Assembly: GCA_947446595.1 (NCBI GenBank)
Contig: CANFGS010000018.1
Span: 1 to 37,656, forward strand
Direction of reading: 5' to 3'
Length of the DNA: 37,656 bases
Origin: Neisseriaceae bacterium
Lineage (GTDB): Bacteria > Pseudomonadota > Gammaproteobacteria > Burkholderiales > UBA11063
The notes under the pieces are model-generated. The model searched no databases and was not told the origin of the DNA. It saw nothing but the letters and a program-made list of their open reading frames with translations. The position numbers were made by a program, and so were the translations under genes. Numbering within the stretch: position 1 is the stretch's first letter; each line of letters opens with the position of its first letter. Below, piece after piece: positions 9,101 to 31,761 of the stretch.

Positions 9101-9428
9101 CATAAATTATATATTTAGCTTCTTTAAAATCAAATAGTATTACATCTGGATTATTAGCTTTATAGATATTTTCAATGACAGGTCCAGGTAATACTACAAA
9201 ATCAAGATTGGCACAAATACCAAGCTTTTTCGCAACATTATCCTTCATAAAAGCACTCATGGCATGATTTGGTACAATAACTTGTACCTTATCAAATATT
9301 GATAAACCTTCTAGGGTATTAAAATGGCTTAGAAATAACTCAAATAACCCTGCTTCATTGTCTGAGGTACCAATAGCTGTACTTTGGAAAAACATTATCT
9401 CAGTATTTGTATCATTCACTTCCGTCAT
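6171..9428 (-). CDS. recC: RecC, exonuclease V gamma subunit
   Basis: RecC is the scaffold of RecBCD. It splits the two strands and reads Chi through an inactive helicase/nuclease fold. It is weakly conserved; the call rests on 1085 residues (usual about 1120), position just before recB, and an N-terminus resembling RecC (VQVIVPNHAMSAFMKDNVAKKLGICANLDF, like the E. coli stretch ending in GIAANIDF). The segment ILVVAPDIDLYAPYISAVF and GRITCASLGYLRNIPYKYIYILGLNFGEFP also fit RecC. The first ATG (9428) lies inside the CGTCAT end of a dispersed repeat, and neither it nor Met12 (start 9395) has a clear ribosome binding site. Comparison with E. coli, where RecC starts near MLRVYHSN, favours Met12 (MFFQSTAIG). 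Confidence 0.9.
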   Translation of the reverse strand: MTEVNDTNTEIMFFQSTAIGTSDNEAGLFELFLSHFNTLEGLSIFDKVQVIVPNHAMSAFMKDNVAKKLGICANLDFVVLPGPVIENIYKANNPDVILFDFKEAKYIIYDYLCNNKLSSEDSIELNQYIYQNDKLDIYRVYQLASQLQQIFHEYLYLRTFELLNLEKSKFPGWQKEILAHLFKHIDSKQTFLDIYTYFTTTDISKLQLPNRLFIFGLTSIYPSQLNILKHLAKNIDIYWYYQPCSYEYYGDLLSDATRNKLEKKLLNEPDLNLDDLYLTSGNPLLSNLGSQSREFIELLQANDITVYDFKPATSIPKMDTMLDVIQNDIRSLKYRITLDKRIHQSYYEDPIAVSNHNIKINSCHNRMREVQVMFNEIVGILNNDNKLNDILVVAPDIDLYAPYISAVFDNEVLSHNQKLPYNITGNRRHSDYKILETIKLIINTPYILNVSYFIDILNQIGVSEDDINWIKKSLLENATHFGYSSDDYNKYGYQNYPIHSFLQFINNISLGACLNNSMFESKAPIYNSNDGKYIPYDNIDSNQLELCEKIISLFNLLSELRQVFYSDENTLRKLTIKESHDTLTNIVNSVFEINLTTQNFLGTLLEINLKTPIDLQIINQIIDEYCKASSNKINLDGRITCASLGYLRNIPYKYIYILGLNFGEFPSSNTPNQLSILAKTWHLADRNYNIEDKQIFLDTILAARKMLYLSYIGRAETDNSAIKPSPVLGLLINTIEQSFTNIDEIITIHSLHPFYNNSQNNYSQLWHKVGSQINNNFEDRRWDFTNLTKLQQMEIEVKIDSIVNTFLYTNSNLYKTLGISTYNEEIELEDTENLVLFNRSIAGKIYRVFETYKPNSDQLYEYLSIKGIIGYQHFGEAQYKYYKTLYDFYKKHRGNEAVEVDFTHTITRNDEKYNLLINGTLYIENNSLILIPDFGDINDKPLADKFSDLPYKLKLTAMVYASLIASRLDKILVVRQINSSLETSDLVININQDNMINQILVYYLRSLNNPVLIHRAAIEEYANTLSIGKAYNKYSGSFNNFDLENIRQDIIFGSIANKYFDVIKDVGSINDIVNIGELLSKMGSI

Positions 9429-9518
9429 TCCAGCATTTTTTCGTCATCGAAACATTAATATCCGTCATCCCAGCTAAGGCTGGGATCCATGCACTCATAT
9501 ACTCAATTAGGGCAAGTG
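9423..9518 (+). repeat. dispersed repeat copy A (left half with perfect hairpin)
   Basis: The core runs from CGTCATCCC (9463) through GGATCCATGC to about 9518. ATCCCAGC (9467-9474) and GCTGGGAT (9479-9486) form a perfect 8-bp stem with loop TAAG. A further CGTCATTCCAGC (9423-9434) and CGTCAT (9442-9447) suggest remnants of another copy. It fills the rpe-recC gap and runs into the recC start. It matches the left half of copy C (24375-24477). Confidence 0.85.
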
Positions 9519-17666: not shown

Positions 17667-18916
17667 AATCCCACTTCACTACTAAATCTATCGGGTCGAA
17701 ATTTGTATATAAACAACAAACCACCAATTATTGTGCACATACCACCAATCAATACGGGATACATTATATACCCTGAAGCAAGGTATCCAGCGATTAATGC
17801 TGGTATTGTTCCCGACAAAGCATTACTACTACTATTTATACCCATTACTTCCCCACGAATTTCTGCTTTTGTAATTCGAGTCAGTAAGGCTGTGCTAAAA
17901 GCTTTAGTTAGTGCAATAGCAAGAGCCATTAGCGGTGGAATAAAATAAATATACAGAACATTATCTAATGAAATAAAATAATAAGCTAATATACATAAGC
18001 CTGTAGCTATTATTGATATGCGAAGAACTTTATAATCAGTAATCTTACTAGAAAGTCTTCTAACAACAACCCCTTGAGCCAAAATTACCATTACCCCAAA
18101 GTATGCAAAAAAATCACCAATTTGTGATTGATTGTAGAAAAACTTACTAGCTAATATCACACCCCAAAAAGTAGTAAAAAAACTAAATCCTGCGTTAAAT
18201 AAAAATATAGATGGAATAATATTTCTTAACCCATTGTCGCTAAAACCTCTAAAGATATTAATAAACGGTCTAGCTAAATCAATATTAGCCTTATTCACCA
18301 CTCGAGTTTCAGGTAAAAAATATAAAATCAATAATACGTTTAAAAAACAAAGAAAGCTTGCAAAGATAAATGGCGTATAACTAGTAAACCAATCAACTAT
18401 CATTGAATCTGATAGTTTGCCACCAACAAATGGTCCAAAAATAAACCCACTTCCTAATGCCATCCCTACTATCCCAAAATTCCGCGCTCTTTTTGTAGGC
18501 TCGCTAATATCACCGATTACAGAATGAGCAACAGAAATATTGCCACCAGTAGCACCATCAATACTACGAGCTAAAAACATAAGAGGGATATTTTTACAAT
18601 ATATAGCATAAGCAAAGAGAAGATATGAAATCGCGGTGCCAGAAATAGAAAATAATAAAATAAGTCGTCGTCCAAATTTATCAGAATATTGCCCAAGTAT
18701 AGGGGCACAAATAAACTGAAATAATGGATACATTGCCATCAGCCATCCACCCATAATCAGTGCTTGTGATGTACTCCAACTATCTGGAATTATACAAAAT
18801 ATTGATGTTTTTAAAATAAGTAGTGGAATTACTGGTATTAAGATACCAATACCTAGCATATCAAGAAATATAGTTAAGAAAACCACCAAAAGAACTTTGG
18901 TATTAGAATTTTTCAT
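17663..18916 (-). CDS. MFS transporter, TetA/Bcr-type exporter
   Basis: A 417-residue inner-membrane protein with about 12 hydrophobic segments. The MFS signature between segments 2 and 3 is GQYSDKFGRRLILL. The start (LVVFLTIFLDMLGIGILIPVIPLL) and LARSIDGATGGNISVAHSVIGD, then GMALGSGFIFGPFVGGKL, resemble the tetracycline/H+ antiporter branch (DHA1). The substrate cannot be told from sequence; calling it tetracycline resistance would be an over-reading. It is followed by a coupled lipoprotein. Confidence 0.85.
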   Translation of the reverse strand: MKNSNTKVLLVVFLTIFLDMLGIGILIPVIPLLILKTSIFCIIPDSWSTSQALIMGGWLMAMYPLFQFICAPILGQYSDKFGRRLILLFSISGTAISYLLFAYAIYCKNIPLMFLARSIDGATGGNISVAHSVIGDISEPTKRARNFGIVGMALGSGFIFGPFVGGKLSDSMIVDWFTSYTPFIFASFLCFLNVLLILYFLPETRVVNKANIDLARPFINIFRGFSDNGLRNIIPSIFLFNAGFSFFTTFWGVILASKFFYNQSQIGDFFAYFGVMVILAQGVVVRRLSSKITDYKVLRISIIATGLCILAYYFISLDNVLYIYFIPPLMALAIALTKAFSTALLTRITKAEIRGEVMGINSSSNALSGTIPALIAGYLASGYIMYPVLIGGMCTIIGGLLFIYKFRPDRFSSEVGL

Positions 18917-18968
18917 AGTTAGAGTTGTCGTATAACATTACTCATACGACACCAAGAATACATGGATA

Positions 18969-19235
18969 TTAATTATGTCCAGGTTTAGCAAAACGGCATA
19001 GACCACTTCCACTTTTTTCTTCATTCAAAGTTACAGTAATATTTTTATCTAGTGCAAGAATATTTGCTTTACAAGTAGCAGCACAATCAGCTTTATCAGC
19101 AGTGTAGTTTACTTGAACTGCCGTTTTATTATGGCTTTTTAGCATTCCTACAACTTTTTCTGCATTTTTTGGATCATTACAATCAGCAAAAGCAACACTA
19201 CTAAGAACCATAAGTGCTAACAATAATTTTTTCAT
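18969..19235 (-). CDS. small exported four-cysteine protein, unrecognised
   Basis: An 88-residue protein with a clear signal peptide (MKKLLLALMVLSSVAFA, probable cleavage before Asp18). The mature part of about 71 residues has four cysteines (19, 51, 55, 80), enough for two disulfides in the periplasm, with a CAATC pair. A strong AAGGTGAT ribosome binding site precedes the ATG, and an extended -10 promoter lies upstream. I do not recognise the family. Confidence 0.75.
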   Translation of the reverse strand: MKKLLLALMVLSSVAFADCNDPKNAEKVVGMLKSHNKTAVQVNYTADKADCAATCKANILALDKNITVTLNEEKSGSGLCRFAKPGHN

Positions 19236-19310
19236 ATTTTATCACCTTTATAAATTATTAAACATCTCACAAATTAGATATTTGAAAAATCACTTACCTA
19301 ACAATTATAC

Positions 19311-19319
19311 ATTATACCA
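19311..19319 (-). promoter_or_regulatory. extended -10 promoter for the small exported protein
   Basis: The minus strand reads TGGTATAAT, a perfect extended -10 (TGnTATAAT), about 76 bases before the ATG at 19235. A second TATAAT follows a few bases on. A TTGACT lies just upstream at too short a spacing to serve as the -35. The leader would be about 70 bases. Confidence 0.5.
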
Positions 19320-19381
19320 CAGTAGTCAAAAATAAAGCACAAATTTTAAATTATATTACCTATCCCATCAAGCATTATTAT

Positions 19382-19436
19382 GGCATGGATCCTCAACTCA
19401 CATTTAAGCAGCAACTTGTTTATGTCGAGGATGACG
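19382..19436 (+). repeat. dispersed repeat copy B (right half)
   Basis: GGCATGGATCC through GAGGATGACG matches the right half of copy C (24421-24477), including AAGCAGCAA and CTTGTTTATG. ATCCTCaAC (19389-19397) pairs with GTcGAGGAT (19424-19432) at 8 of 9 positions. Two of these pairs differ from copy C on both sides of the stem. It lies between the RNase E/G-family gene and the small exported protein. Confidence 0.8.
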
Positions 19437-19445
19437 CTGAGGGTA

Positions 19446-20471
19446 TTATTTGCTTCTAATAATCTCACAAAGACCGGCCTTAGTGAATCCTAGTACTTTA
19501 TTACGCCGCCAATCATCTTGAAATAATTTTTTTATTTTATCAGATAGTATCAAACACTCTTTATTACTCATGTTTTTAATAAAATCAATAAGAATAATCC
19601 CGCTTAAATCATGTAGTTTTATTTGTTTTACTATATCATCAATTGCTAATAAATTTACCTGATAAAAACTTAAATTAGAACTACCACTATCAATATCAAT
19701 GAGATTTATCCCTGATAACTTGTGAATATTTAGTTTAATACCATTAGACGTAACAGCTACATTATTTAATTCAATATTAGGCTTATCTATATCACTATCA
19801 AGAGAGAGCTCATCAATCCCCCACAAATCAATACATGACTTCAAGCCATCAAAAATTTTGTTACTATTAGTTACAATATTTAAGCCTTCACTATATTTAT
19901 AAAGTAACTCTATATAATTAGGAATACCATCTAGCACACAACCAAGAGCAGACTGTTTGGCTATTGCCACTAACTTACTAGATAACAATAAAATTTCGGC
20001 TTCTACAATTTTTAAATCAGTTAATGAATTTATGGATGATCTGAAGATTAATCCTATATCCTTATATTTCTTACTAATCTCATCTAATTTTTGATGCTCA
20101 ATAAGACTATTAGCATAATGATGCGTCTTTAAAGCAGATAATAGCACAACATATTTACCTGCTAATTTTATTTCCTGACTCAATTTAGGCATTTTACCAT
20201 GGATACCAATGGAAGTCATTTGACAAACAATCTTACTTCCATTTTGAAGACTATGCCCTTTTGGTAAATTGATAACTCCAACTTTGTCAAACTCATAATT
20301 AAGCCAAGCTAGATTATTTCTTGATTGAATATTAGTGATTTTTGCCAAAAACACCCCTTGAGAATTAGATTCTAGTGAGTCTACTAAATAATACTCCAAT
20401 TGTGAGGATGAATTATAGGCAAAAGTATAGCTATTTTGTTTATCGGCATAAATAATTATTTTACTTAACAT
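19446..20471 (-). CDS. RNase E/G-family protein, short form
   Basis: A 341-residue relative of the RNase E/G catalytic domain. An S1-like segment lies near residues 35-95 (GVFLAKITNIQ...KVGVINLP). LIDIDSGSSN is the counterpart of the AIDINS motif, and HDLSGIILIDFIKNM carries Asp296, equivalent to RNase E Asp303. FQDDWRRNKVLGFTKAGLCEIIR carries Asp319/320 at the place of Asp346. It ends directly after this, so the zinc-link cysteines and the small dimerisation domain of RNase E/G are absent. It may be a compact ribonuclease or a divergent RNA-binding relative; the family call is good, the activity unproven. rng is a possible name, but I leave it blank. Confidence 0.75.
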   Translation of the reverse strand: MLSKIIIYADKQNSYTFAYNSSSQLEYYLVDSLESNSQGVFLAKITNIQSRNNLAWLNYEFDKVGVINLPKGHSLQNGSKIVCQMTSIGIHGKMPKLSQEIKLAGKYVVLLSALKTHHYANSLIEHQKLDEISKKYKDIGLIFRSSINSLTDLKIVEAEILLLSSKLVAIAKQSALGCVLDGIPNYIELLYKYSEGLNIVTNSNKIFDGLKSCIDLWGIDELSLDSDIDKPNIELNNVAVTSNGIKLNIHKLSGINLIDIDSGSSNLSFYQVNLLAIDDIVKQIKLHDLSGIILIDFIKNMSNKECLILSDKIKKLFQDDWRRNKVLGFTKAGLCEIIRSK

Positions 20472-20514
20472 ATTGATTTATCAACTTTGAGATACTATAA
20501 CATATAAAAATTGT

Positions 20515-20544
20515 TTGACATCTGGGAATTATTCATTATATAAT
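20515..20544 (+). promoter_or_regulatory. tRNA-Asn promoter with consensus -35 and -10
   Basis: TTGACA (20515-20520) and TATAAT (20539-20544), both perfect consensus, are 18 bases apart. The tRNA starts 11 bases after the -10. Confidence 0.85.
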
Positions 20545-20555
20545 ACTCTCCTTGT

Positions 20556-20632
20556 GCCTCAATAGCTCAGACGGTTAGAGCGACGGACTGTTAATCCGCA
20601 GGTCGTAGGTTCGATTCCTACTTGAGGCGCCA
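20556..20632 (+). tRNA. tRNA-Asn (anticodon GTT), CCA encoded
   Basis: The acceptor stem GCCTCAA/TTGAGGC pairs perfectly. The D-arm GCTC...GAGC, the anticodon loop CTGTTAA (anticodon 20590-20592) and the T-loop GGTTCGATTCC are all present. The discriminator is G (20629), followed by an encoded CCA. The top pair of the anticodon stem is an A-C mismatch. It runs antisense to its neighbours, between purB and the RNase E/G-family gene. Confidence 0.97.
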
Positions 20633-20653
20633 CTTCTACAATTACTTACCACT

Positions 20654-22006
20654 CTAAAACAACTTATCAGCTAAGCCAATGTAATTATGTGGTGTTAATT
20701 GTAATAACCCATTTTTATCAGATTCTGGTAAATCAAGCCCCAAAATAAACTCACGCACACGAACTTCATCTATTTTTTTACCACGAGTTAAATCTTTAAG
20801 TTTTTCATAAGCATCTGGAATCCCACATTTACGCATCACTGTTTGGATTGGTTCAGCTAACAGTTCCCAATTTTGATTAAGATCATTAGTTATTGCTACT
20901 TGATTTAATTCTAGCTTATTAAGCCCTTTTAATAACGAGCTATACGCTAATACGCTATAGCCTATTACAACCCCAATATTTCTTTGAACTGTACTATCAG
21001 TCAAATCTCTCTGGAAACGTGAAATAGGTAGTTTTTCTGCCAAATGTAGCGCTATTGCATTAGCTAAGCCAAGATTACCTTCGCTATTTTCAAAATCAAT
21101 TGGATTTACCTTATGTGGCATAGTAGAACTACCCACTTCTCCGGCAATCACTTTTTGTTTAAAGTAATTATATGCAATATAGCCCCATATGTCACGGGCT
21201 AAATCAATAAGTATGGTATTAATACGTGATAAATTTTGCATAAATTCAGCGACATAATCATGTGGCTCAATCTGAGTAGTAAATGGATTAAATGTTAGCC
21301 CTAATTTTTGTTCAACCATTATTTTAGCTAAATTTTGCCAATCAACATCTGGATAACTAACAATATGAGCATTATAATTACCAACAGCTCCATTAATTTT
21401 ACCTAGTATCTCTTGATTTTTGAATTGCTTTAGTTGACGCTCTATACGATAATAAACATTATAAAACTCCTTACCAACGGTAGTTGGTGTAGCACTTTGA
21501 CCGTGCGTACGACTCATTAAAGAAATAGCTTTGTACTCATTTGCAAGAGACAATAATTTACTACCTAATTTAGCTAATTCAATATCTAACACTTTATCTT
21601 TAATATCCTTTAGCATCAAAGCATAGCTTAGATTGTTAATATCTTCAGAAGTACAGGCAAAATGAATAAACTCACGATAGGAATGTAGTTTTTGATTTGC
21701 TACTATTTGCTCTTTTATATAGTACTCAACAGCCTTAACATCATGATTAGTTGTTTTCTCAATTGCTTTAATACGGTTACAAGCTGTAATATCAAAATTA
21801 TTGCTAATATTATCAAGAATAGTTATTTCTTCATTTGATAATGGTGGCAAATCAAAACCTTTAGTTTCAAATAATAACTTAAGCCACTCTATCTCAACCC
21901 TAACGCGGTATTTTACTAAACCAAACTCAGAGACTATTTCATTTAAAATACTAACTTTATCGCTATAACGTCCATCAAGTGGCGAAATATTCATTACTTT
22001 ATCCAT
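20654..22006 (-). CDS. purB: adenylosuccinate lyase
   Basis: Acts twice in purine synthesis, splitting fumarate from SAICAR and from adenylosuccinate. The 450-residue protein follows the E. coli-type start MNISPLDGRYSDKV. It carries SRTHGQSATPTTVGKE (active-site His), and the fumarase-superfamily signature GSSTMPHKVNPIDFEN. AAAAGGA lies eight bases before the ATG. It begins 24 bases after the UbiC-like gene and so probably ends a glmS-ubiC-like-purB transcript, which would run towards the tRNA gene on the other strand. Confidence 0.97.
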   Translation of the reverse strand: MDKVMNISPLDGRYSDKVSILNEIVSEFGLVKYRVRVEIEWLKLLFETKGFDLPPLSNEEITILDNISNNFDITACNRIKAIEKTTNHDVKAVEYYIKEQIVANQKLHSYREFIHFACTSEDINNLSYALMLKDIKDKVLDIELAKLGSKLLSLANEYKAISLMSRTHGQSATPTTVGKEFYNVYYRIERQLKQFKNQEILGKINGAVGNYNAHIVSYPDVDWQNLAKIMVEQKLGLTFNPFTTQIEPHDYVAEFMQNLSRINTILIDLARDIWGYIAYNYFKQKVIAGEVGSSTMPHKVNPIDFENSEGNLGLANAIALHLAEKLPISRFQRDLTDSTVQRNIGVVIGYSVLAYSSLLKGLNKLELNQVAITNDLNQNWELLAEPIQTVMRKCGIPDAYEKLKDLTRGKKIDEVRVREFILGLDLPESDKNGLLQLTPHNYIGLADKLF

Positions 22007-22030
22007 GTCTATCCTTTTAAATTTATATAA

Positions 22031-22492
22031 TTAGGTATATTGCTTAAGAACATCATTAAGTCCTGGCAAAATAAATTCCTTTAAAGTCAATATCTCATCA
22101 TCCATAACAAAATTTGACTGTCTATAATAAATCACCCCTGATACATTACTTTGTACCAAATAGCTTTTTATAGTTTGATTATTTATTGTTTTTGTATCAA
22201 TTTTACCAATAAATGACTCAATTCTCTTAATTCCAGAGTTTGGGGCAAATAAACGCACTCCAATAGGAGTAACACCTGCATTTTGTAATATCTCTAGAAA
22301 TGTTAGATTCGATAATTTAGTCTCACTAAGTCCAAGCATAACAGGTATTTTATCAACAAAGATTACTACTAAGCGACTAAATACATCACCAACAACTCCA
22401 TGCTCAATAACTTCTAAAAAATATTCATCAGACCAAGTTTTAAAATGTTTGGTTGTTGAACCATAGTCCGCCAAAAACTCCATTACATTCAT
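22031..22492 (-). CDS. UbiC-like protein (chorismate--pyruvate lyase family)
   Basis: UbiC makes 4-hydroxybenzoate from chorismate, the first step of ubiquinone synthesis. This 153-residue protein is near the usual 165. The layout fits: an Arg (Arg40, RLVVIF) where UbiC has its pyruvate-binding Arg, then EILQNAGVTPIGVRLFAPNSGIKR (like the PLGRWLF region), IYYRQSNFVM (like YxRRS), and LTLKEFILPGL with Glu139, the likely counterpart of catalytic Glu155. Similarity is weak, so a UbiC-fold relative with another ligand is possible. I start it at ATG 22492, six bases after the glmS stop. No ubiA is nearby. Confidence 0.6.
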   Translation of the reverse strand: MNVMEFLADYGSTTKHFKTWSDEYFLEVIEHGVVGDVFSRLVVIFVDKIPVMLGLSETKLSNLTFLEILQNAGVTPIGVRLFAPNSGIKRIESFIGKIDTKTINNQTIKSYLVQSNVSGVIYYRQSNFVMDDEILTLKEFILPGLNDVLKQYT

Positions 22493-22498
22493 CAAATT

Positions 22499-24331
22499 TT
22501 ATTCCACTGTAACACTTTTAGCTAAATTACGCGGCTTATCTACATCAGTGCCTTTGATAACAGCAGTATGATATGCTAATAACTGTAAAGGCACAGTATA
22601 TAAAATTGGTATTAAATAATGCGGCACTTCTATTGTTGGCATATGAATTACCATATGGCATCCTACACTTGCATCAGCTTTAACATCACTAAACAAATAT
22701 ACCTGCCCCTTACGTGCCAAAATCTCTTGTACATTTGATTTGGTCTTATCCATTAGCATTGTTGATGGCATAAGAACCACACTTGGCATAGCATCATCAA
22801 TCAAAGCTAATGGGCCGTGCTTTAGCTCACCTGCAGCATAAGCTTCTGCGTGTATATAAGAAATTTCTTTTAATTTTAATGCACCCTCAACCGCTACTGG
22901 ATATAAAGTATTTCGCCCTAAAAATAACGCATGCTGTTTACTTTCTAGCTCCTGCGCAATTTGCTTAATTTCACTCTCCATTTCTAATACATGGATAATA
23001 TGCTGAGGGAGTTTTCGCATTTCTTCGATAATTTCATCCTCTTCATGTCCAGATAATTCGCCACGAACTTTAGCTAAAGTAAAAGCTAAATACAATAAAA
23101 CCACCAACTGCGTTGTAAAAGCCTTAGTTGAAGCAACGCCAATTTCAGGCCCTGCCTGAGTTAGAATACTTAATTTAGATAATCTAACCAAGCTACTCTC
23201 AGCTACATTACATATAGACAATGTATTTGGCATACCTAATTCATGGGCATATTTGACACTCGCAATAGTGTCTGCAGTTTCACCAGATTGGGATATATTA
23301 ACTATCAGCGTATTTTTTGCTACTGGAATTTTACTATAGCGGTATTCACTTGCAATATCAATTGCACATTCAATATTTGCAAACTCCTGTATCCAGTATT
23401 TGGCAACATGTCCAGCATTTAGGCTTGTTCCACAGGCAATAATTTGCACCTTATCAATTGATTTAAACACTTGTAGTGCTTCTTTACCAAACTTGTCAGC
23501 TTCAAATGTATTACCAAGACTTTGCAAAGTTTGTCCAATGGCATTAGGTTGTTCAAAAATTTCTTTTTGCATATAGTGACGAAACTGCCCTAAGTCTGTT
23601 AACCCAGCTGATAATTCACTAATATTAATATTTCTAGTAATATTAGCACCTTTACTATCCCAAATATTATATGAATAAAGTCCAATCTCAGCAACATCAC
23701 CATCTTCTAAATAAACAACTTTTTGAGTTACTGGTAACAATGCTGAAATGTCGGATGCAAAAAACATTTCATCAATACCAACTCCAAGCACTAAAGGCGA
23801 ACCATTTCTTGCACACACAAGCTGCTCAGGATTATCTTTAGACATAACTCCAATAGCATAAGCACCTTTTAGTTTTGCTATGGCTTCTTTAACCGCACTA
23901 AGCAAATTTTTAGTTTTTTGGTAAAATGAATGGATTAAATGAACAATAACCTCAGTATCAGTTTCTGATTCAAAAAGATATCCAGATTTAATTAGATCAT
24001 CTCTAATGATTTCATAATTCTCAATAATACCATTATGGACTAAGGCAATATTATTTTTAGAGAAATGTGGGTGAGCATTATCGGTAGTTACACCACCATG
24101 TGTAGCCCAGCGAGTATGCCCTATTCCACTTTTACCTTTAAATTTATTAGCTAGACATAGCTCTTTAAGTGCAGCAACACGACTAGTAACCCTCTGCCTA
24201 GCTAATTCATTATCATCATTAATTACCGCAATACCAACAGAGTCATAGCCACGATATTCTAATCTTGATAACCCTTCCAAAATTATTGGAACCACATTTC
24301 GTTCGCTAACACCACCAACAATTCCACACAT
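22499..24331 (-). CDS. glmS: glutamine--fructose-6-phosphate aminotransferase
   Basis: Makes glucosamine-6-phosphate from fructose-6-phosphate and glutamine, the first step towards UDP-GlcNAc for peptidoglycan and LPS. Cys2 (MCGIVG) becomes the N-terminal nucleophile. The glutaminase domain spans about 1-240 (GHTRWATHG, HNGIIEN), followed by two SIS isomerase domains (ACGTSLNAG, NISQSGETADT, GVASTKAFTTQ, EISYIHAEAYAAGELKHGP). It ends in the conserved LAKSVTVE with catalytic Lys605. The 610-residue length is usual. No glmS ribozyme is expected or seen upstream. It works against NagB (33734-34558), which runs the reverse direction. Confidence 0.98.
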   Translation of the reverse strand: MCGIVGGVSERNVVPIILEGLSRLEYRGYDSVGIAVINDDNELARQRVTSRVAALKELCLANKFKGKSGIGHTRWATHGGVTTDNAHPHFSKNNIALVHNGIIENYEIIRDDLIKSGYLFESETDTEVIVHLIHSFYQKTKNLLSAVKEAIAKLKGAYAIGVMSKDNPEQLVCARNGSPLVLGVGIDEMFFASDISALLPVTQKVVYLEDGDVAEIGLYSYNIWDSKGANITRNINISELSAGLTDLGQFRHYMQKEIFEQPNAIGQTLQSLGNTFEADKFGKEALQVFKSIDKVQIIACGTSLNAGHVAKYWIQEFANIECAIDIASEYRYSKIPVAKNTLIVNISQSGETADTIASVKYAHELGMPNTLSICNVAESSLVRLSKLSILTQAGPEIGVASTKAFTTQLVVLLYLAFTLAKVRGELSGHEEDEIIEEMRKLPQHIIHVLEMESEIKQIAQELESKQHALFLGRNTLYPVAVEGALKLKEISYIHAEAYAAGELKHGPLALIDDAMPSVVLMPSTMLMDKTKSNVQEILARKGQVYLFSDVKADASVGCHMVIHMPTIEVPHYLIPILYTVPLQLLAYHTAVIKGTDVDKPRNLAKSVTVE

Positions 24332-24374
24332 AAATAATTACCTTTCAATTTAAAGAATAACCAGCATTGTACCC

Positions 24375-24477
24375 CGTCATCCCAGCGCAGGCTGGGATCC
24401 ATGCTCTTGCTCTAATTTTTAGGGCATGGATCCCAAACTCATAACGAAGCAGCAAAAAGTTCTTGTTTGGTATGACG
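24375..24477 (+). repeat. dispersed repeat copy C (full-length, about 103 bp)
   Basis: Bounded by CGTCAT and ATGACG. Stem 1 is ATCCCAGC/GCTGGGAT (24379-24386 with 24391-24398, loop GCAG, perfect). The centre holds GGGATCCATGC and its exact inverse (24394-24404 with 24424-24434). Stem 2 is ATCCCAAAC/GTTTGGTAT (24430-24438 with 24465-24473), 8 of 9 paired. No coding capacity. It lies between hemH and glmS. Confidence 0.9.
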
Positions 24478-24492
24478 AAAATAACCCTTGCA

Positions 24493-25452
24493 CTAATCAC
24501 ACAAACTATTTAATACATTAATAAAATCATCGTTATCATTCAAACAAGGAATATAATTATAACTAACTCCACCTGCATTTAAAAATACTTCTTTATTAAG
24601 TATCGCTATTTCCTCTAAAGTCTCAAGACAATCACTAACAAATCCTGGACATATTATATCTACTGAAATAACTCCATCACGAGCCAAAGCCGCTAATGTA
24701 ATATTTGTTGCTGGAGATAACCATTTTTGAGCACCAAATCTAGATTGAAATACCATAATATATTCATTTTCAGTTAAACCTAATTGTGTGACAACTAGTT
24801 TAGTAGTAAGCTCACAGTGCTTAAAATAAGCATCCCCACGTTTTATTATATCTAATGGCAATCCATGATAGCTAAATACAAGCTTTTGGCTCTTACCATT
24901 ATTTTGCCAAGATTCACGAATAGTATTACAAAGGGCATTAATATATAGACTATTAGCAGCAAAATCACTGACAAACTTAATTTCTGGAATATAATATTTG
25001 TCTTTATAAAACTCAGAAATACTATCAAATACAGGTAGAGTAGTAGTTGATGAAAACTGTGGGTACATTGGTACTATAGTTAACTTGTCAGGTACAAGGG
25101 TATTATGTATCTCAGATAATACATCATTGATAGAAGGATTTGCATAAGAAAATGCATACTTCACAATATGCCCCGTCTTTGCTAGTTTGGTTGCTTGCAT
25201 ATCTGTATAATGAATAAGTGGTGAATTATTAAATAGCCAAATTTTAGTGTATTGTTTAAGTAATCGTTTAGCCCTAAAGGTTAATATTATGCCGTATAAA
25301 ATCGGATACCAAAGTATTTTAGGTAAATTCACCACTCTTTTATCAGACAAAAAAGCACTTAGAAACTTACGAATCGAACTTGTTGACAATGAATTAGGCG
25401 AACCTAAATTAACCAATAAAATCACATGTTTAGTTAAAGTTTTATTATCCAT
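24493..25452 (-). CDS. hemH: ferrochelatase
   Basis: Inserts ferrous iron into protoporphyrin IX, the last step of protoheme synthesis. 319 residues, usual for bacteria. ILLVNLGSPNS opens the protein. VFSYHGLP contains the metal-binding His196, and the C-terminal CPGFVSDCLETLEEI carries the conserved Glu. VPMYPQFSSTTT is another family mark. It follows plsY by six bases. A dispersed repeat separates it from glmS. Confidence 0.96.
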   Translation of the reverse strand: MDNKTLTKHVILLVNLGSPNSLSTSSIRKFLSAFLSDKRVVNLPKILWYPILYGIILTFRAKRLLKQYTKIWLFNNSPLIHYTDMQATKLAKTGHIVKYAFSYANPSINDVLSEIHNTLVPDKLTIVPMYPQFSSTTTLPVFDSISEFYKDKYYIPEIKFVSDFAANSLYINALCNTIRESWQNNGKSQKLVFSYHGLPLDIIKRGDAYFKHCELTTKLVVTQLGLTENEYIMVFQSRFGAQKWLSPATNITLAALARDGVISVDIICPGFVSDCLETLEEIAILNKEVFLNAGGVSYNYIPCLNDNDDFINVLNSLCD

Positions 25453-25458
25453 CTATTA

Positions 25459-26067
25459 TTACTCTTCCGATTTTTTAAACTTATGTTCTTGACCACTAAA
25501 TAAACGAAAAACATTCTCTTTATGCTTATATAATACAAAAAATGCTATTACTAAAGTAGCTCCAAAATATGTATTATTACCCATTAGTAAAAAAGCATAT
25601 ACAGGTGATAAAACAGTTGCAGTTAATGCCGATAGCGATGATATCTTGGATATTTTAAACACTACGCCCCAAGTAACTACAAGTAATAACGCCAATATGG
25701 GATTAAATCCAAGCATCACACCAAATGCAGTTGCAACACCCTTCCCACCCTTAAATTTAAAAAATAGTGGATAGATATGTCCTATAACTACAAGAACCCC
25801 AGCTAAAGCAGTAATAGTTTGCACATCAATATTATGATTAAATAAATGCTTAAACACTAATACTACAATAGTACCTTTAAGTAAATCACCAATTAAGGTT
25901 AATAGAGCAGCTTTTTTATTACCACTACGCATAACGTTAGTTGCACCAGCATTATTTGAACCATAACTTCTTGGATCATTAAGTTTCATAAATTTACTAA
26001 CAATAATTGCAAAAGACAAAGAACCCGCACAATATGCGATAAACAAAGCCATATATGAATGATTCAT
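25459..26067 (-). CDS. plsY: glycerol-3-phosphate acyltransferase PlsY
   Basis: An inner-membrane enzyme that moves an acyl group from acyl-phosphate to glycerol-3-phosphate, starting phospholipid synthesis. The 202 residues have about five hydrophobic segments. The three PlsY motifs are visible: SLSFAIIVSKF, DPRSYGSNNAGATNVMRSGNKK and FKFKGGKGVATAFG. GAGG precedes the ATG well. It overlaps nothing and is closely followed by hemH. Confidence 0.96.
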   Translation of the reverse strand: MNHSYMALFIAYCAGSLSFAIIVSKFMKLNDPRSYGSNNAGATNVMRSGNKKAALLTLIGDLLKGTIVVLVFKHLFNHNIDVQTITALAGVLVVIGHIYPLFFKFKGGKGVATAFGVMLGFNPILALLLVVTWGVVFKISKISSLSALTATVLSPVYAFLLMGNNTYFGATLVIAFFVLYKHKENVFRLFSGQEHKFKKSEE

Positions 26068-26081
26068 AAAAATCCTCTCTA

Positions 26082-26516
26082 TTAATATTTAATGTTAAAT
26101 TGAAGTTGCCGTTGGTTTATATTCATCTTCACATTATCAGATGGCGCCAGTGGTAAACTCATACCTCCTTGATACTTTCCCATGGCATTTTTGAAATTCT
26201 GATCTTGCATCGTATTTTGGTTAGAATTTGTTCCAGCTGTAGCTACACTGACTGTTTGTTCATGATTTGAAATATCATATCCATTAATTTTGGTGCTACT
26301 TTCATATTTAGTTTGATATGCTGATGGATTTTTATTACAAATAACATCAGCCACATTTCCAGTATAACATTCTTTGGTACTATTGTTAGTTATACCACCT
26401 ACAGTTTTAGTGTTTAGAGATTCTGTTGGCATCAAAAATGATAGTACACCGCTTTTTATACCTTCAGCTTCTACATGAAAGATATAAAACACTAAAAATA
26501 TAGTCAATAGTTTCAT
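26082..26516 (-). CDS. small secreted protein, unrecognised
   Basis: I do not recognise the family. I start it at ATG 26516, one base after the erpA stop (MKLLTIFLVFYIFHVEAEG); a longer form to 26546 would overlap erpA. Residues 1-16 look like a signal peptide, with possible cleavage at VEA-EG. The mature part of about 128 residues is rich in Asn, Thr, Ser and Gln, has two cysteines (ECYTGNVADVICN) and no repeats or further membrane segments. It ends close to plsY (15 bases). Confidence 0.65.
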   Translation of the reverse strand: MKLLTIFLVFYIFHVEAEGIKSGVLSFLMPTESLNTKTVGGITNNSTKECYTGNVADVICNKNPSAYQTKYESSTKINGYDISNHEQTVSVATAGTNSNQNTMQDQNFKNAMGKYQGGMSLPLAPSDNVKMNINQRQLQFNIKY

Positions 26517-26517
26517 T

Positions 26518-26850
26518 TTATACTGAAAAAGATGACCCACAACCACACGTTGTTGTAGCTTGAGGGTTTTTTATAGTAAACTGAGAACCTTCAAATGAGT
26601 CAACATAATCAATCTCAGCACCAACAAGATATTGATAAGACATACTATCTACCAAAAACTTAACTCCATCCTTATCAACGACCAAATCATCTTCATTACT
26701 AATTTCATCAAAAGTAAAACCATATTGAAATCCAGAGCATCCACCACCTGTGATAAAGACTCTTAATTTAAGATCGTTATTACCTTCTTCTTCAATTAAT
26801 TCTTTTACTTTATTTACAGCATTATCTGTAAATACAATTGTAGTTTCCAT
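26518..26850 (-). CDS. erpA: iron-sulfur cluster insertion protein ErpA
   Basis: An A-type carrier that delivers Fe-S clusters to apo-proteins, including isoprenoid-pathway enzymes. From ATG 26850 (AGGA nine bases upstream) it has 110 residues. The three cluster cysteines are Cys38 ([11 protein letters not shown]), Cys102 and Cys104 (TTCGCGSSF). The stretch [19 protein letters not shown] is typical of ErpA rather than IscA. An extension to 26886 is possible but has no better ribosome binding site. Confidence 0.95.
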
Positions 26851-26937
26851 TATTATTTTCCTATTAATTTTTAATGAATAAAGCACCTATAATGCTACTC
26901 ACTATGTATTTTATCACAAATACTGTATATTTCAATA

Positions 26938-26968
26938 ATAAAAAGCCCTCACATAAATGTAAGGGCTT
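26938..26968 (-). terminator. intrinsic terminator of rpsB-tsf
   Basis: AAGCCCT (26962-26968 read on the minus strand) pairs with AGGGCTT (26943-26949). The stem extends through a C-A mismatch into ACAT/ATGT, and the minus strand continues with TTTTT. It lies 26 bases past the tsf stop. Confidence 0.9.
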
Positions 26969-26993
26969 CTAAATACTTAGATTGAAAGAGTAA

Positions 26994-27875
26994 TTATTTA
27001 ACTATTGCAGCAGCAGCCACTTCAGCAGCAAAATCTACTTCTTTCTTTTCAATTCCTTCACCAACTACAAACATTGCAAAAGATTTAACAGTTGCTTTTT
27101 TATCAGCAAGTAGTTTATCTACACTAACATCAGGATTTTTAACAAATTGTTGCCCAAGAAGTGTTACTTCCGCCAAAAATTTATTTAATCTACCTTCAAC
27201 CATCTTAGCTACTATCTCAGGGCTTTTCCCTGAAGCTGAGGCTTGTTGGGTATAAATATTACGTTCAGTTTCTATTTGTTCGCTAGGAACATTATCTTTT
27301 GACACACAAATTGGTTTACTAGCAGCAATATGCATTGCAATATCACGACCAAGCTCAGAATCACCACCTACTATATCAAGGGCGACACCGATTTTTTTAC
27401 CATGTAAGTATGTAGCAACTAGACCTTCAGTTGCAAAAGGCTTAAATCTACGAACAGAAATATTTTCACCAAGTTTAGCAATAAGTTCTTTTCTAGATTC
27501 TTCAACAGTTTTACCACTATCAGTTTTAGCATTAGCTACATCTTCTAATGTAGTTACATTAGCATCAACGATTGCCTTAGCAACACTATCCGCAAAAGCC
27601 AAAAAACTAGCATCTTTAGCAACGAAATCAGTCTCACTGTTTACTTCAACTAAAGCACCTTTTTTACCATCAGCGGTAATAAAAGTAGCAACAACACCCT
27701 CAGCTGCAGTTCTTCCTGCAACTTTACCAGCTTTAGCTCCACTTTTAATACGTAGTAACTCTTCAGCTTTTTTAATATCGCCTAGAGTTTCAACCAGCGC
27801 TTTTTTACATTCCATCATACCTAAGCTAGTGATTTCTCTAAGTTCACCAACCATTTTAGCTGTAATATTTGACAT
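26994..27875 (-). CDS. tsf: elongation factor Ts
   Basis: Nucleotide exchange factor for EF-Tu in translation. 293 residues, usual. The start [27 protein letters not shown] is the UBA-like domain, and [15 protein letters not shown] is the TDFVAKD core motif that contacts EF-Tu. GGAG precedes the ATG. It follows rpsB by four bases and is closed by a strong terminator, so pyrH, often third in this operon, is not attached here. Confidence 0.98.
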
Positions 27876-27879
27876 AGTA

Positions 27880-28701
27880 TTATACTCCTGCCGATTCTAC
27901 AGTAAAAGCTACTTCAGCTTCTTCAGATTTAGCACTTTTCACTCTACGAACTGTTTTTGCTTTAGCTTCTGGAGCATCTTCAACCATTTCAAGCTTAACT
28001 TCATTAGCTAAATCTTGAACTGCGCTATCTTTAGCTTTAATAATTGTATCTGCTATTACTGAAGCATACAAGCGAATAGCTTTAGCTGAATCATCATTAC
28101 CAGGGATAACATAATCCACTTCTGATGGATCGTTATTTGTATCAACGATACCAATAACAGGGATACCAAGTTTTTTAGCTTCTTTAATAGCGATATCATG
28201 ACAACCAGTGTCAATAATAAATATAGCTGAAGGTAAACCCTTCATTTCAGAAATACCACCAATACTTAATTGTAGCTTTTCTACATCACGTGATAAATCT
28301 AATAATTCTTTTTTAGATAAGCCGCTATCATCAGTTTTTTCTAATAATGCACCCTTAACTTCAAGTTTTTTAATTGATTTTTTTACTGTTTCAAAATTTG
28401 TTAACATACCACCCAACCAACGGTGATCAACAAATGGCATACCTGCTCTTTTTGCTTCTTCAGAAATAATTTCACTAGCTTGGCTACGAGTACCCACAAA
28501 AAGCACTTCGCCTTTATTTCTAGCAACTTGGTTAATAAATTTTAATGCATCTTTGAATAAAACAAGTGTTTTATCTAAGTTGATAATATGAATTTTACTT
28601 CTAGCGCCAAAAATATAAGGTTTCATTTTTGGGTTCCAGAATTTGGTTTGATGTCCGAAGTGAACACCGGCTTCCATCATTGTTTGAATAGAAATAGACA
28701 T
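27880..28701 (-). CDS. rpsB: 30S ribosomal protein S2
   Basis: Structural protein of the small ribosomal subunit. I start it at ATG 28701 ([32 protein letters not shown]), giving 273 residues; an in-frame opening to 28836 reads through an apparently structured leader and is rejected. Family marks are [32 protein letters not shown] and [20 protein letters not shown]. The C-terminal tail of about 45 residues is longer than in E. coli and Ala/Glu/Lys-rich. It is co-transcribed with tsf. Confidence 0.98.
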
Positions 28702-28790
28702 AAATTTTCCATAAAAAAGGGTTAAACCTCCACCCGTGGATTTCGATAAGCTACTATCACTAGTAAGCCTACACCCCTTAACCACAGATG
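28702..28790 (-). promoter_or_regulatory. candidate rpsB 5' leader
   Basis: About 90-100 bases of leader lie between the proposed start and the ATG. On the minus strand, TCCAC-GG-GTGGA forms a hairpin. Overlapping it, GGGT...ACCC is followed by TTTTTT directly before the start region, so two structures exclude each other. Many proteobacterial rpsB leaders bind S2 for autoregulation; that this one does so is inference. Confidence 0.4.
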
Positions 28791-28797
28791 TGCGAGA

Positions 28798-28825
28798 TAT
28801 ATAATAACTTTCGGCACAATACCAA
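28798..28825 (-). promoter_or_regulatory. candidate rpsB promoter
   Basis: Minus strand TTGGTA (28820-28825), 16 bases, TATATA (28798-28803). A GC-containing CTCGCAC follows the -10, as is common at growth-rate-controlled promoters. Confidence 0.4.
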
Positions 28826-28846
28826 AAGAGTGACATATTTTAACAT

Positions 28847-28868
28847 AAAAAACCCCATGTATGGGTTA
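28847..28868 (-). terminator. intrinsic terminator of the yciA gene
   Basis: The minus strand reads AACCCA-TACA-TGGGGTT (one bulged G) followed by TTTTTT. It directly abuts the stop of the thioesterase gene at 28870 and insulates it from the rpsB promoter. Confidence 0.75.
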
Positions 28869-28869
28869 A

Positions 28870-29262
28870 TTATTTTAGAATTTTTGTGGGCTTACCATTA
28901 GCATCTATTGACACATAGGTAAATACCCCTTGAGTGACAATCTTCGATATATTAGTAAGGTAATCATATACCCATGTTTCTACCGATATTTTTATCGAGG
29001 TATTACCAAGGCTAATAATTGCTGCATAAGTAGATACTACCGACCCAACTTTTACTGGATTTATAAAAGCCATACTTTCAATCGCAACTGTTGCAGCACG
29101 TCCTTCTGGTGAATAAGCTTTTGCAAGTATTGCACCACCCAAATCCATCTGAGATAATACCCAGCCCCCAAATATATCGCCATTAGCATTAGTATCTCCT
29201 GGCATAGCCAGAGTTTTCATAACCAATTCACCTTTAGGAGCACTTGGAACAACCTTAGTCAT
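28870..29262 (-). CDS. yciA: YciA-type acyl-CoA thioesterase
   Basis: A hot-dog fold hydrolase that splits acyl-CoA esters in the cytosol. 130 residues, usual. GELVMKTLAMPGDTNANGDIFGGWVLSQMDLGGAILA carries the Asn/Asp-containing catalytic segment of the YciA group; VAIESMAFINPVKVGSVVSTYA and ISVETWVYD follow. It is divergent from murI, with 100 bases between starts. Confidence 0.92.
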   Translation of the reverse strand: MTKVVPSAPKGELVMKTLAMPGDTNANGDIFGGWVLSQMDLGGAILAKAYSPEGRAATVAIESMAFINPVKVGSVVSTYAAIISLGNTSIKISVETWVYDYLTNISKIVTQGVFTYVSIDANGKPTKILK

Positions 29263-29362
29263 TATTAAGCCTTTAAATAATATTACAACAGCACAAATCT
29301 TAACATATATACTAAACGCTTAATATGATAAAATAATGTAAGATTATTTTTAGAGATGATAT

Positions 29363-30154
29363 ATGTCAAACAAGCGTCCCATAGGTGTTTTTGATTCTGG
29401 TATTGGTGGATTAACTGTAGTTAAAAGCATTATGCAAAAACTCCCTCATGAAAATATAGTTTATTTTGGAGATATTGCACGACTGCCATATGGTACCAAA
29501 TCAGTTGCAACCATAAGGAAATTTGCTGAGCAAACAGTACGGTTTTTGGTACAGCATAATGTAAAAGCTATTGTTATCGCTTGTAATACTATATCAGCAG
29601 TTGCTAAAGATGAAGTAATAAAACTAGCTGGAAACATACCGGTTCTTGATGTTATTTCATCTGGTAGTGTAGCTAGTAGCAACGGAAACAATATCGGAAT
29701 TATAGCAACACCTGCAACCGTGAATAGTAACGCCTATCCAAATTCAATACTAAGATTGAATAATACAGTTAAGATTTCACAAGCTGCGTGCACCCTCTTT
29801 GTTCCATTAATAGAAGAAGGCTATATTAATCACCCGGCACTAGATTTAATTGCCAAAGAATATTTATCTCCAATGAATGAAATAGATACACTGGTACTGG
29901 GCTGTACTCATTATCCGATAATAAAAAACACTATAAGAAAAATTGTTGGTGAAAATGTAAACATAATAGATCCAGCTGACAAAACAAGTGATGATTTGGT
30001 TACGAACCTAACCAAGCTTGATTTAATTAATACAAGTCTTGATAAACCTGTCTATGAGTTTTATGTTACCGAAATTTCTCCCAAATTTAATTCTATTGGG
30101 GAAATGTTTCTAAATACCAAACTTAGCACACCGCAGTTAGTAAGTTTAGATTAA
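29363..30154 (+). CDS. murI: glutamate racemase
   Basis: Makes D-glutamate for peptidoglycan. 263 residues, usual. IGVFDSGIGGLTVV contains the catalytic-pocket Asp and Ser; Cys74 (IACNT) and Cys181 (LGCTHYP) are the two catalytic cysteines. AGAG lies before the ATG. It is a single gene on the plus strand and converges on the permease at 30356, with a dispersed repeat between. Confidence 0.97.
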   Translation: MSNKRPIGVFDSGIGGLTVVKSIMQKLPHENIVYFGDIARLPYGTKSVATIRKFAEQTVRFLVQHNVKAIVIACNTISAVAKDEVIKLAGNIPVLDVISSGSVASSNGNNIGIIATPATVNSNAYPNSILRLNNTVKISQAACTLFVPLIEEGYINHPALDLIAKEYLSPMNEIDTLVLGCTHYPIIKNTIRKIVGENVNIIDPADKTSDDLVTNLTKLDLINTSLDKPVYEFYVTEISPKFNSIGEMFLNTKLSTPQLVSLD

Positions 30155-30168
30155 AAAAGCACAAGAAC

Positions 30169-30196
30169 ATGGATCACAACCTCCGCTTCGATGACG
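30169..30196 (+). repeat. degenerate fragment of the dispersed repeat
   Basis: ATGGATCACAACC...CTTCGATGACG resembles the ATGGATCCCATCCTTCGATGGGATGACG end of copy D (30304-30332) but has lost the pairing. It lies directly before copy D. Confidence 0.5.
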
Positions 30197-30223
30197 AAAT
30201 TTACTTCGACGACGGACATAAAC

Positions 30224-30332
30224 CGTCATTCCAAACAAGAACTTTTTGCTGTCTCACAGAGAGTTTGGAATCCATGCTTTAGAAAAGCAAATTAGAGCAA
30301 TGGCATGGATCCCATCCTTCGATGGGATGACG
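30224..30332 (-). repeat. dispersed repeat copy D (full-length, about 109 bp, inverted)
   Basis: Same element as copy C in the opposite orientation. ATTCCAAAC/GTTTGGAAT (30228-30236 with 30263-30271) is a perfect 9-bp stem. ATCCCATC/GATGGGAT (30309-30316 with 30321-30328, loop CTTC) is a perfect 8-bp stem. Conserved stretches with copy C include AACAAGAACTTTTTGCTG and AAATTAGAGCAA (on the appropriate strand). It lies between the convergent murI and permease genes and could also stop both transcripts. Confidence 0.9.
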
Positions 30333-30355
30333 TAAGAAGCAATGGGATGAAGTAC

Positions 30356-31720
30356 TTATTTAATTAAATTAAATTTCTTTTTACTATAAAATACACTATA
30401 ACCTAATATATAAACATACCCCACCACAGGAACTAAGAAAGAAATTTCTATATTAAATATATCTGCAATACGACCTTGAATAACTGGCAATATCGCCCCA
30501 CCCAAAATCATCATTACTAAGAACGATGATGCTTGCTCTTTTAGTTTACCCAAGCCATCAATTGCTAAATCAAAAATATTTGGCCACATTACCGAATTAA
30601 AGATTCCAACAGATAAAATAGCCCAAGCTGCAAACCACCCATTATGTAATGTAGCACCAAGAACTAAACTCACTATATTTACAATACTAAACAATAGTAA
30701 ATTAATACGTGAATTTTTACTAAATAAGAATAACACAAGCGCTAATACTTGGAAGCCAACATAATATACAATATTGATACCTTCAATATTAGTCAAAAAC
30801 ACAATTAGACAAGTAAGTAGGCAAGCAACTATTGGCATAAAAATTATTTTTTTGCTAAACCTAGTACTACTTAAAGAAATCCCACCAAGAAATCTTCCTA
30901 TCATTGCCCCACCCCAGTAGAATGCTAACAATTTCCCAGCAATATTATCAGTAAGCCCAACAGTTGAACTAGATTTAAGATAAGCTACTAAATTTGTTCC
31001 AACTGATACTTCAGAACCAACATAGAAGAAAATCGCAAATGCACCAAACAATAAATTAGCATGATTAAGCGCAAAAGGTTTACCACTTTCTTGACTAAAT
31101 GTATGTTGTTCACTAGTATGTAAAAACTTATACATTAAAACTAGTAAACCCAAGAAAAACAAAGCTAATAAAATATAAGGGTATTTTAAATTTGCATGAT
31201 TATTATTTACATCAAGAAAGTTATAAAATACTACCACTCCAATTATTGGAGCTAGTGTTGTAGCGAGTGAATTGAAACCTCCCGCCAAATTTAGTCGACT
31301 AGCACCAGTAGCATGATTACCAGAAATTAACACTAATGGATTAGCTGATATTTGTAAAAAAGTAAACCCAAAACCAATAGAAAATAATCCAACTAGAAAG
31401 ATAGGGTAGCTTTTAAGCATTGCTGCAGGAATAAAAATCAAACAGCCAATACCAGATAATACCAGCCCCAATAAAACCAAGCCTTTATAACCTAAGCGTA
31501 CAAAAAAAGTTATTCCTACCATTGATGATAATACATAAAACAAGGAACCAATAAAATAAGCGGTAAAAAATGCAAAAGATACAAAATTTGCCTGAAATTG
31601 ACTTAGGGCAAATAATTGTTTTAAAATTGGAGTTAGTAAGTCATTTAGACAAGTAACAAAACCCCAGCCAAAAAACAATCCCAATAGAACCAAAAAGTTC
31701 AGATTATTACGATTCAACAT
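30356..31720 (-). CDS. FucP/GluP/NagP-type sugar:H+ symporter
   Basis: A 454-residue inner-membrane MFS transporter of the fucose/glucose/galactose permease family. FFGWGFVTCLNDLLTPILKQLF at the start, FTAYFIGSLFY, FSIGFGFTFLQISANPLV and SRLNLAGGFNSLATTLAPIIGV are the marks of this family. About 12 hydrophobic segments. The position after nagB and acs makes N-acetylglucosamine or glucosamine the most likely substrate, as for Shewanella NagP; this is inference. It starts 41 bases after the acs stop. Confidence 0.88.
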   Translation of the reverse strand: MLNRNNLNFLVLLGLFFGWGFVTCLNDLLTPILKQLFALSQFQANFVSFAFFTAYFIGSLFYVLSSMVGITFFVRLGYKGLVLLGLVLSGIGCLIFIPAAMLKSYPIFLVGLFSIGFGFTFLQISANPLVLISGNHATGASRLNLAGGFNSLATTLAPIIGVVVFYNFLDVNNNHANLKYPYILLALFFLGLLVLMYKFLHTSEQHTFSQESGKPFALNHANLLFGAFAIFFYVGSEVSVGTNLVAYLKSSSTVGLTDNIAGKLLAFYWGGAMIGRFLGGISLSSTRFSKKIIFMPIVACLLTCLIVFLTNIEGINIVYYVGFQVLALVLFLFSKNSRINLLLFSIVNIVSLVLGATLHNGWFAAWAILSVGIFNSVMWPNIFDLAIDGLGKLKEQASSFLVMMILGGAILPVIQGRIADIFNIEISFLVPVVGYVYILGYSVFYSKKKFNLIK

Positions 31721-31761
31721 CCATATACCCTTTCAATAAGTTAATTTACTTGTTTTAATTG

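Follow-up and report, generated by a model that had tools for sequence, protein, structure and literature searches.

Repeat units in the window

The window, that is, the whole stretch of 37,656 nucleotides analysed here, is the entire contig C18 of the host genome (G000; 1,737,106 bases, 57 contigs). It carries four copies of a repeat, A to D, composed of a short-loop hairpin unit (S), a long-loop hairpin unit (L) or both (Table 1), and a ferrochelatase gene adjoins copy C. Copy C is an S unit followed by a reversed L unit, and copy D is the same arrangement reversed. An earlier note on this DNA had placed the four copies from the sequence alone; its starts for A, C and D are right, whereas copy B starts at 19383 and not at 19382. 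The CGTCAT...ATGACG frame that it ascribed to all four is present on reading each site, as is the central inverted GGGATCCATGC of the full copies. Copies C and D do have two stems each, one S and one L, and the two partial copies are a lone S unit (A) and a lone L unit (B). The pair swap noted for copy D (AGC/GCT against ATC/GAT) is real. In the second stem, B differs from C by the two proposed changes (C:G to T:A and A:T to C:G) and also at a third pair (A:T to G:T), and at one position T:A in D stands against A-G in C and C:G in B.

Table 1. Repeat units, half units and spacer at copies A to D, in window coordinates.
Feature	Position	Strand	Remark
Copy A, S unit, complete from tag through 8-bp stem and 4-nt loop to CCATGC tail	9463..9492	+	Sequence read, orthologous alignment
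Ladder upstream of copy A, two half units (tag and left arm only) at 9423 and 9442	9423..9453	+	19 and 21 bp apart
Copy B, lone L unit	19383..19436	-	Stem subtype ATCCTCGAC/GTTGAGGAT; common to G001 and G010
Copy C, S unit	24375..24404	+	
Copy C, spacer separating the two tails	24405..24423		TCTTGCTCTAATTTTTAGG
Copy C, L unit; 26-nt TGCTG loop, one mismatched pair in the 9-bp stem	24424..24477	-	In G010, missing from G001
Decayed S unit next to copy D	about 30167..30196	-	Scan and pattern match
Copy D, L unit	30224..30277	+	
Copy D, S unit, ATCCCATC/GATGGGAT	30303..30332	-	One stem pair C:G here, T:A in G010 ortholog
Half unit upstream of copy D's S unit	30341..30352	-	20 bp upstream

Folded as DNA, copies C (z -4.2) and D (z -3.4) beat 200/200 shuffles and copy A (z -3.5) all but one, while copy B alone folds no better than shuffled DNA (z +0.5). 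The pattern CGTCATCCCA(N8)TGGGATCCATG with up to 3 mismatches matches the window four times compared with 0.00 in 100 shuffles, the fourth match being the decayed S unit. An Rfam search of the window returned a tRNA only.

Long matches to the window stretch have 91–95 percent identity in G001 and 88–89 percent in G010, both MAGs of closely related sister species; G003 and G006 are sister species as well. The sister species that share window copies are 5–12 percent apart. Copies B and C lie at loci shared with G001 and G010, and copies A and D at loci shared with G010; A and D were not located among the contigs examined of G001, a genome only 58 percent complete. Copy C in G001 has the S unit without its partner. 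The copy A locus in G010 holds an S> <L S> trimer, so copy A is best read, from this alignment, as a probable deletion remnant.

A genome-wide family of opposed short-loop and long-loop units

A consensus-likeness scan over 74 stretches of the host genome (1.74 Mb) returned 89 clusters holding 147 units in all (76 S and 71 L), which bears out the dispersed family suggested from the window; 46 of the clusters are lone units. The S unit reads CGTC-ATCCCAGC-GNAG-GCTGGGAT-CCATGC and the L unit CGTC-ATCCCAAAC-[mostly 25–26 nt, TGCTG mid-loop]-GTTTGGGAT-CCATGC, with tag and tail identical in both. Among 35 aligned S units, T3 of the tag never varies, G2 and C4 hardly do, and the first base is mostly C but also T, A or G. 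The S stem has 8 bp and opens with A-T and T-A pairs (a few units open with G-T), the loop has 4 nt, and the CCATGC tail is present in 35/35. Three subtypes stand side by side at S pair 7 (AGC/GCT, ATC/GAT and AAC/GTT). A BLAST search of the host genome with copy C gave, at E up to 10, at least 95 matches among the candidates scored, the weak ones including reverse-complement tail matches.

An S and an L unit stand opposed in 48 of 58 neighbouring pairs; six more are like-with-like and opposed (54/58 opposed overall), and four have the same orientation. Both tags-out and tags-in arrangements occur, and all 18 tags-out dimers with fewer than 80 bases between the units join S with L. The clusters are mostly intergenic: 58 of 89 lie between same-strand genes, 22 between convergent and 4 between divergent ones, with 5 undetermined, where genes are long open frames called without annotation and 5 clusters overlap such a frame.

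Near-identical alternating S/L arrays were seen at two contig ends (G000:C9:70758-71386 and G000:C37:12136-12332), possibly one array split by assembly. At L141:1350 (G000:C8), a half L unit is tandem to a complete L unit, and the comparison with its G001 ortholog L173 ends inside the repeat. Tandem arrays in G010 (L101–L106) alternate L-type units of two stem subtypes, and L106 has tandem half L units. Amplified arrays of G010 hold another L subtype, ATCCTCGA/TCGAGGAT, in near-identical units.

Model R1 matched 54 of 300 genomes of the order and 36 of 134 genera at E up to 1e-4. Because R1 also matches L units, R1 and R2 counts in the genus genomes, which are limited by the number of candidates scored, are not additive; the L unit was sought with its model in G000, G001 and G010. 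Outside the genus, most of the best order-level loci listed carry ATTCCCGCG/CGCGGGAAT-type stems.

Relation to known repeats and MITE-like carriers

Judged by its sequence, the S unit is a member of a widespread known class. In the available excerpts of its description (Di Nocera, De Gregorio, Rocco 2013, PMC3733652), the CGTC-1 REP superfamily has a CGTC tag, an 8-bp stem starting with AT, a 4-nt loop and a CCA tail, CGTC families other than CGTC-1 having a 5 nt loop. The S unit matches in tag, stem, loop and tail, which counts for CGTC-1 identity, and the host family resembles CGTC-1 further in its mostly intergenic position and perhaps in its opposed dimers and apparent lack of a dedicated transposase. 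The L loop, mostly 25–26 nt, departs from the 4-nt CGTC-1 length, and the L unit is a variant partner rather than CGTC-1 itself. In CGTC-1, according to the same excerpts, opposite-orientation (HH) dimers predominate, as do homodimers, whereas host dimers mix S with the 25–26 nt-loop partner; the half-unit ladders described below likewise go unmentioned in those parts of PMC3733652. The host family is thus ordinary in class and unusual in detail, namely in its mixed short-loop and long-loop pairs and its ladders.

The likeness to dRS3 and other GTCATCCC repeats raised in the earlier note is genuine, as the excerpts of PMC3733652 file dRS3 as CGTC-1. The Neisseria dRS3 element, given as ATTCCC(N8)GGGAAT in part of PMC3898611, shares the 6+8+6 inverted-repeat geometry, but no phage link was found for the host units. 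The exact dRS3 pattern is present in G006; it has 0 matches in the window, and no G000 locus is among the 29 of 240 loci that match it. REPINs or BIMEs with RAYT, as far as described in portions of PMC3116915 and PMC8266576, are alike in paired REPs of alternating orientation, compensatory changes and tandem clusters, and unlike in that the host tag is CGTC, not GTAG, and the search for a Y1 transposase in the host gave no match. QMITE2 of Coxiella (excerpts of PMC5896051) offers a parallel as a MITE with REP-like small forms, whereas G006 and G003, but not the host, are where MITE-borne CGTC units were observed.

One such carrier in G006, an element of ~195 bp with TAGACTTCTTGCATAACCT ends, encloses a pair of opposed CGTC units. 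With 2 mismatches allowed, such ends occur at 67 sites in G006 and at none in G000, G001 or G010, and a match of some kind occurs in 10 of the 23 genomes of the genus. No transposase of the ~195 bp element was found. At G006 loci L209–L226, this MITE-like element carries a tags-out dRS3-type dimer, and several copies sit at contig ends. In G003 (L043, L049, L113–L116), a CGTC unit lies in an element of ~150 bp with AAGTACC...GGTACTT ends adjoining TA; at L115:1419 of the same genome, a CGTC unit was seen once within an element with other ends. CGTC dimers within palindromes are known from Halothiobacillus (H. neapolitanus).

Paired stem changes and their cause

The check across copies proposed in the earlier note gave paired-change cells far in excess of shuffles for both units. 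The S alignment (35 rows, 24 distinct) has 12 cells changed on both sides compared with 2.4 in shuffles (0/500), and in the same 35 rows the number of pairs with a both-side change is at chance level (2 compared with 1.4; 237/500 shuffles). The L alignment (42 units) has 21 cells compared with 4.7 and 5 pairs compared with 1.6 (0/500 each). Since both sets had been found with a pairing-rewarding score, the test was redone on units picked by consensus likeness: 22 cells compared with 3.7 in 52 distinct S units and 44 compared with 8.6 in 70 distinct L units (0/1000).

Shuffles ignore relatedness, and orthologous units were therefore compared too, in 50 unit pairs (23 with G001, 27 with G010) after gapped units and those below 70 percent identity had been dropped. 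Eight double changes lead from one Watson-Crick pair to another (7 G010, 1 G001). Other stem changes are two doubles to mismatch, nine singles to mismatch and four to G-T, and restoring changes are six from G-T and four from mismatch to Watson-Crick. In G010, independence predicts ~0.7 doubles (14 and 11 changes of 225 sites) compared with 8 seen, 7 paired and 1 not. The excess of double changes at orthologous loci is real.

Its source could be conversion between copies or hairpin-templated repair besides selection; such repair may produce paired stem changes. Half of the eight doubles switch S pair 7 and so join standing subtypes, for which conversion between copies would suffice. The remaining four doubles, of which two are in copy B, one in copy D (S unit) and one at locus C32:4699, produce a T:A pair at position 5 of the S stem or at position 6 or 9 of the L stem, types found in 0/52, 0/70 and 1/70 distinct host units, the subtypes tabulated being those of the host. 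As these pair types are absent or nearly absent in the host, selection or hairpin-templated repair fits them better. Between G000 and G010, stems changed at 25/450 sites, loops at 44/305 and the tail at 3/162; stems slower than loops, with the tail slowest, make some constraint likely. Between G000 and G001, L stems show no such lag behind the loop (10/216 compared with 12/311). The earlier note had argued from paired changes to a selected fold. The paired changes do exceed chance, but they do not by themselves establish selection, the 8 doubles being about as frequent as the 9 singles to mismatch; the question was beyond the reach of the four copies in the window. Paired changes in DNA hairpins need not signal an RNA.

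Ladders of half units

Upstream of 40 of the 76 S units lies at least one half unit (tag plus left arm, at least 9/12 bases), giving 82 rungs; the other 36 units have none. Rung spacing is 19–23 bp in 76 of 82 cases and most often 21. With the upstream DNA shuffled, the mean fell to 1.4/76 units (maximum 5, 50 rounds), and downstream DNA gave 7/76, with 200 bases read upstream against 150 in the downstream control and units of one array counted several times. Spacers are more alike within ladders (0.74) than between random rungs (0.44); the likeness of rung cores within ladders (0.85) arises partly because rungs were picked by core. Across species, rung number differs in 11 of 25 orthologous S comparisons and is equal in 14 (six of them 0 and 0), four of the original 29 at one ambiguous locus having been set aside. 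Examples are 1 and 6 rungs at C2:79261 and 0 and 4 at C37:2813.

Ladders recur on a different stem sequence in G006, where 6 of 21 distinct TGTCATTCCCGCG..GGCGGGAATCC units carry them with a period of 20–21 bp; the other 15 sit in the MITE-like element and are ladderless. For the best order-level matches listed, 90 bases of upstream sequence showed no ladder except at the G006 locus. A limited literature search returned no description of half-unit ladders; longer tandem REP arrays of another sort are described in the REPIN paper (excerpts of PMC3116915). We read the ladders, a new feature here, as probable local tandem duplications seeded by the hairpin. Slippage alone does not explain why loci whose spacers are unrelated share a period of about 21 bp. 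An identity as intrastrand triplex motifs was rejected; such motifs are mirror-type purine/pyrimidine repeats, whereas a ladder repeats a mixed sequence in direct orientation.

Transposase, vectors and locus turnover

A search for Y1_Tnp in the host genome gave no match at E up to 1, and the same search matched 10 of 14 controls, 6 of them above the cut-off. Six of 23 genus genomes have a Y1 transposase, and none of the five with copy C BLAST matches does (G000, G001, G003, G010, G015); G006, with its dRS3-type units, has four Y1 matches, against a simple rule. At L059:1501-2095 (G006:C59), a Y1 gene has a shortened CGTC-bearing element ~150–200 bp away, and REP flanks on both sides were not seen. 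Pfam scans of 152 of 160 flanking proteins (71 + 81) placed no transposase among the commonest 25 of 166 and of 148 families. Direct repeats adjoining 18 tags-out dimers reach 2 bases at most; the target-site duplication expected of a MITE beside its terminal inverted repeats is thus missing, none of the 18 having a direct repeat of 3 or more next to it. Vector searches drew a blank in phage records, matched nothing exactly in viral contigs, and gave one partial match, in one plasmid record.

Differences between species read as loss and gain at repeats. Both G000 and G001 have a unit at locus C16:43886 where G010 has none, for which insertion and loss are both possible. Locus 21 (in G010) and locus 60 (in G001) are read as deletions between repeated S units, and locus 60 is also empty in G010. 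Orthologous loci in G001 and G010 were traced via their units, from a subset of listed matches, so this sample is skewed to occupied sites and the window's own loci are the sole even-handed one.

Origin and maintenance of the units

The units are probably CGTC-1-type REPs in BIME-like S/L heterodimers, old, without a resident Y1 transposase, and changing in place as DNA. The heterodimers, with S and L opposed, tags outward or inward and mostly after genes, would be old insertions left by a now-lost transposase with an affinity for single-stranded hairpins; past transposition is argued from analogy, none of the loci having shown an insertion event. The units may persist because they are harmless between genes, and their stems may be kept paired by conversion between copies, hairpin-templated repair and perhaps some selection. 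Replication pausing at the S hairpin could duplicate the preceding tag and left arm and so build the ladders.

It is unlikely that the units are instead parts of 3' untranslated regions in which selection acts on the transcribed RNA hairpin for its role in stabilising or terminating messages. The position of clusters mostly after genes, as in other REP genomes, and the excess of paired changes, also at orthologous loci, would suit such a role. Hairpins fold on both strands, however, and orientation to flanking genes is balanced in same-strand contexts (sense/antisense 22/22 for S and 24/20 for L). Selection on RNA would tolerate G-U on the transcript strand, and mismatches there were accordingly counted: G-T 14 and A-C 9 give no clear G-U bias, in cells so few that a weak effect could escape. 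The suggestion of the earlier note that RNA might be the selected form thus finds no backing in orientation or in a significant G-U excess. Furthermore, none of 12 terminator-like sites in the scanned stretch 18000–31800, outside which copy A lies, falls at copies B, C or D. An intrinsic terminator (a G+C stem followed by a T run) was also rejected as an identity, with no predicted site at those three copies. We consider it quite improbable that the rungs are phased binding sites, about two helical turns apart, for a nucleoid protein or gyrase and that the hairpins are by-products. The tight spacing, its recurrence in G006 with another stem sequence, and cores more alike than spacers (though rungs were chosen by core) are what such binding would predict, but nearly half of the S units are rungless, rung number often varies between species, and the likeness of spacers within a ladder suits local tandem duplication.

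Movement at present, in trans, by a host transposase or a visiting phage or plasmid appears very unlikely. A still active element would account for the high copy number, the near-identical units of the G010 arrays and the locus filled in two species and empty in the third, and dRS3 in Neisseria is a phage integration site (excerpts of PMC3898611). Against it, window copies lie at the same loci in the sister species, unit ends lack duplications, the vector searches gave at best the partial plasmid match, and two presence/absence differences are read as deletions between repeated S units. A tentative alternative, doubtful though not far-fetched, is that CGTC REPs can do without a transposase of their own, spreading as cargo in IS-derived MITEs and growing through local hairpin-driven duplication of tag and left arm near two helical turns, repeatedly and at unrelated loci, in which case the ladder would record a defined step, enzymatic or replicative. 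In 2013 the way in which CGTC REPs move was still an open question, and the excerpts of PMC3733652 report that they lack a dedicated transposase. In this genus, three closely related genomes with shared loci, ladders whose rung number varies between species, and sister species with CGTC units inside MITE-like elements make hairpin spread and local growth testable.
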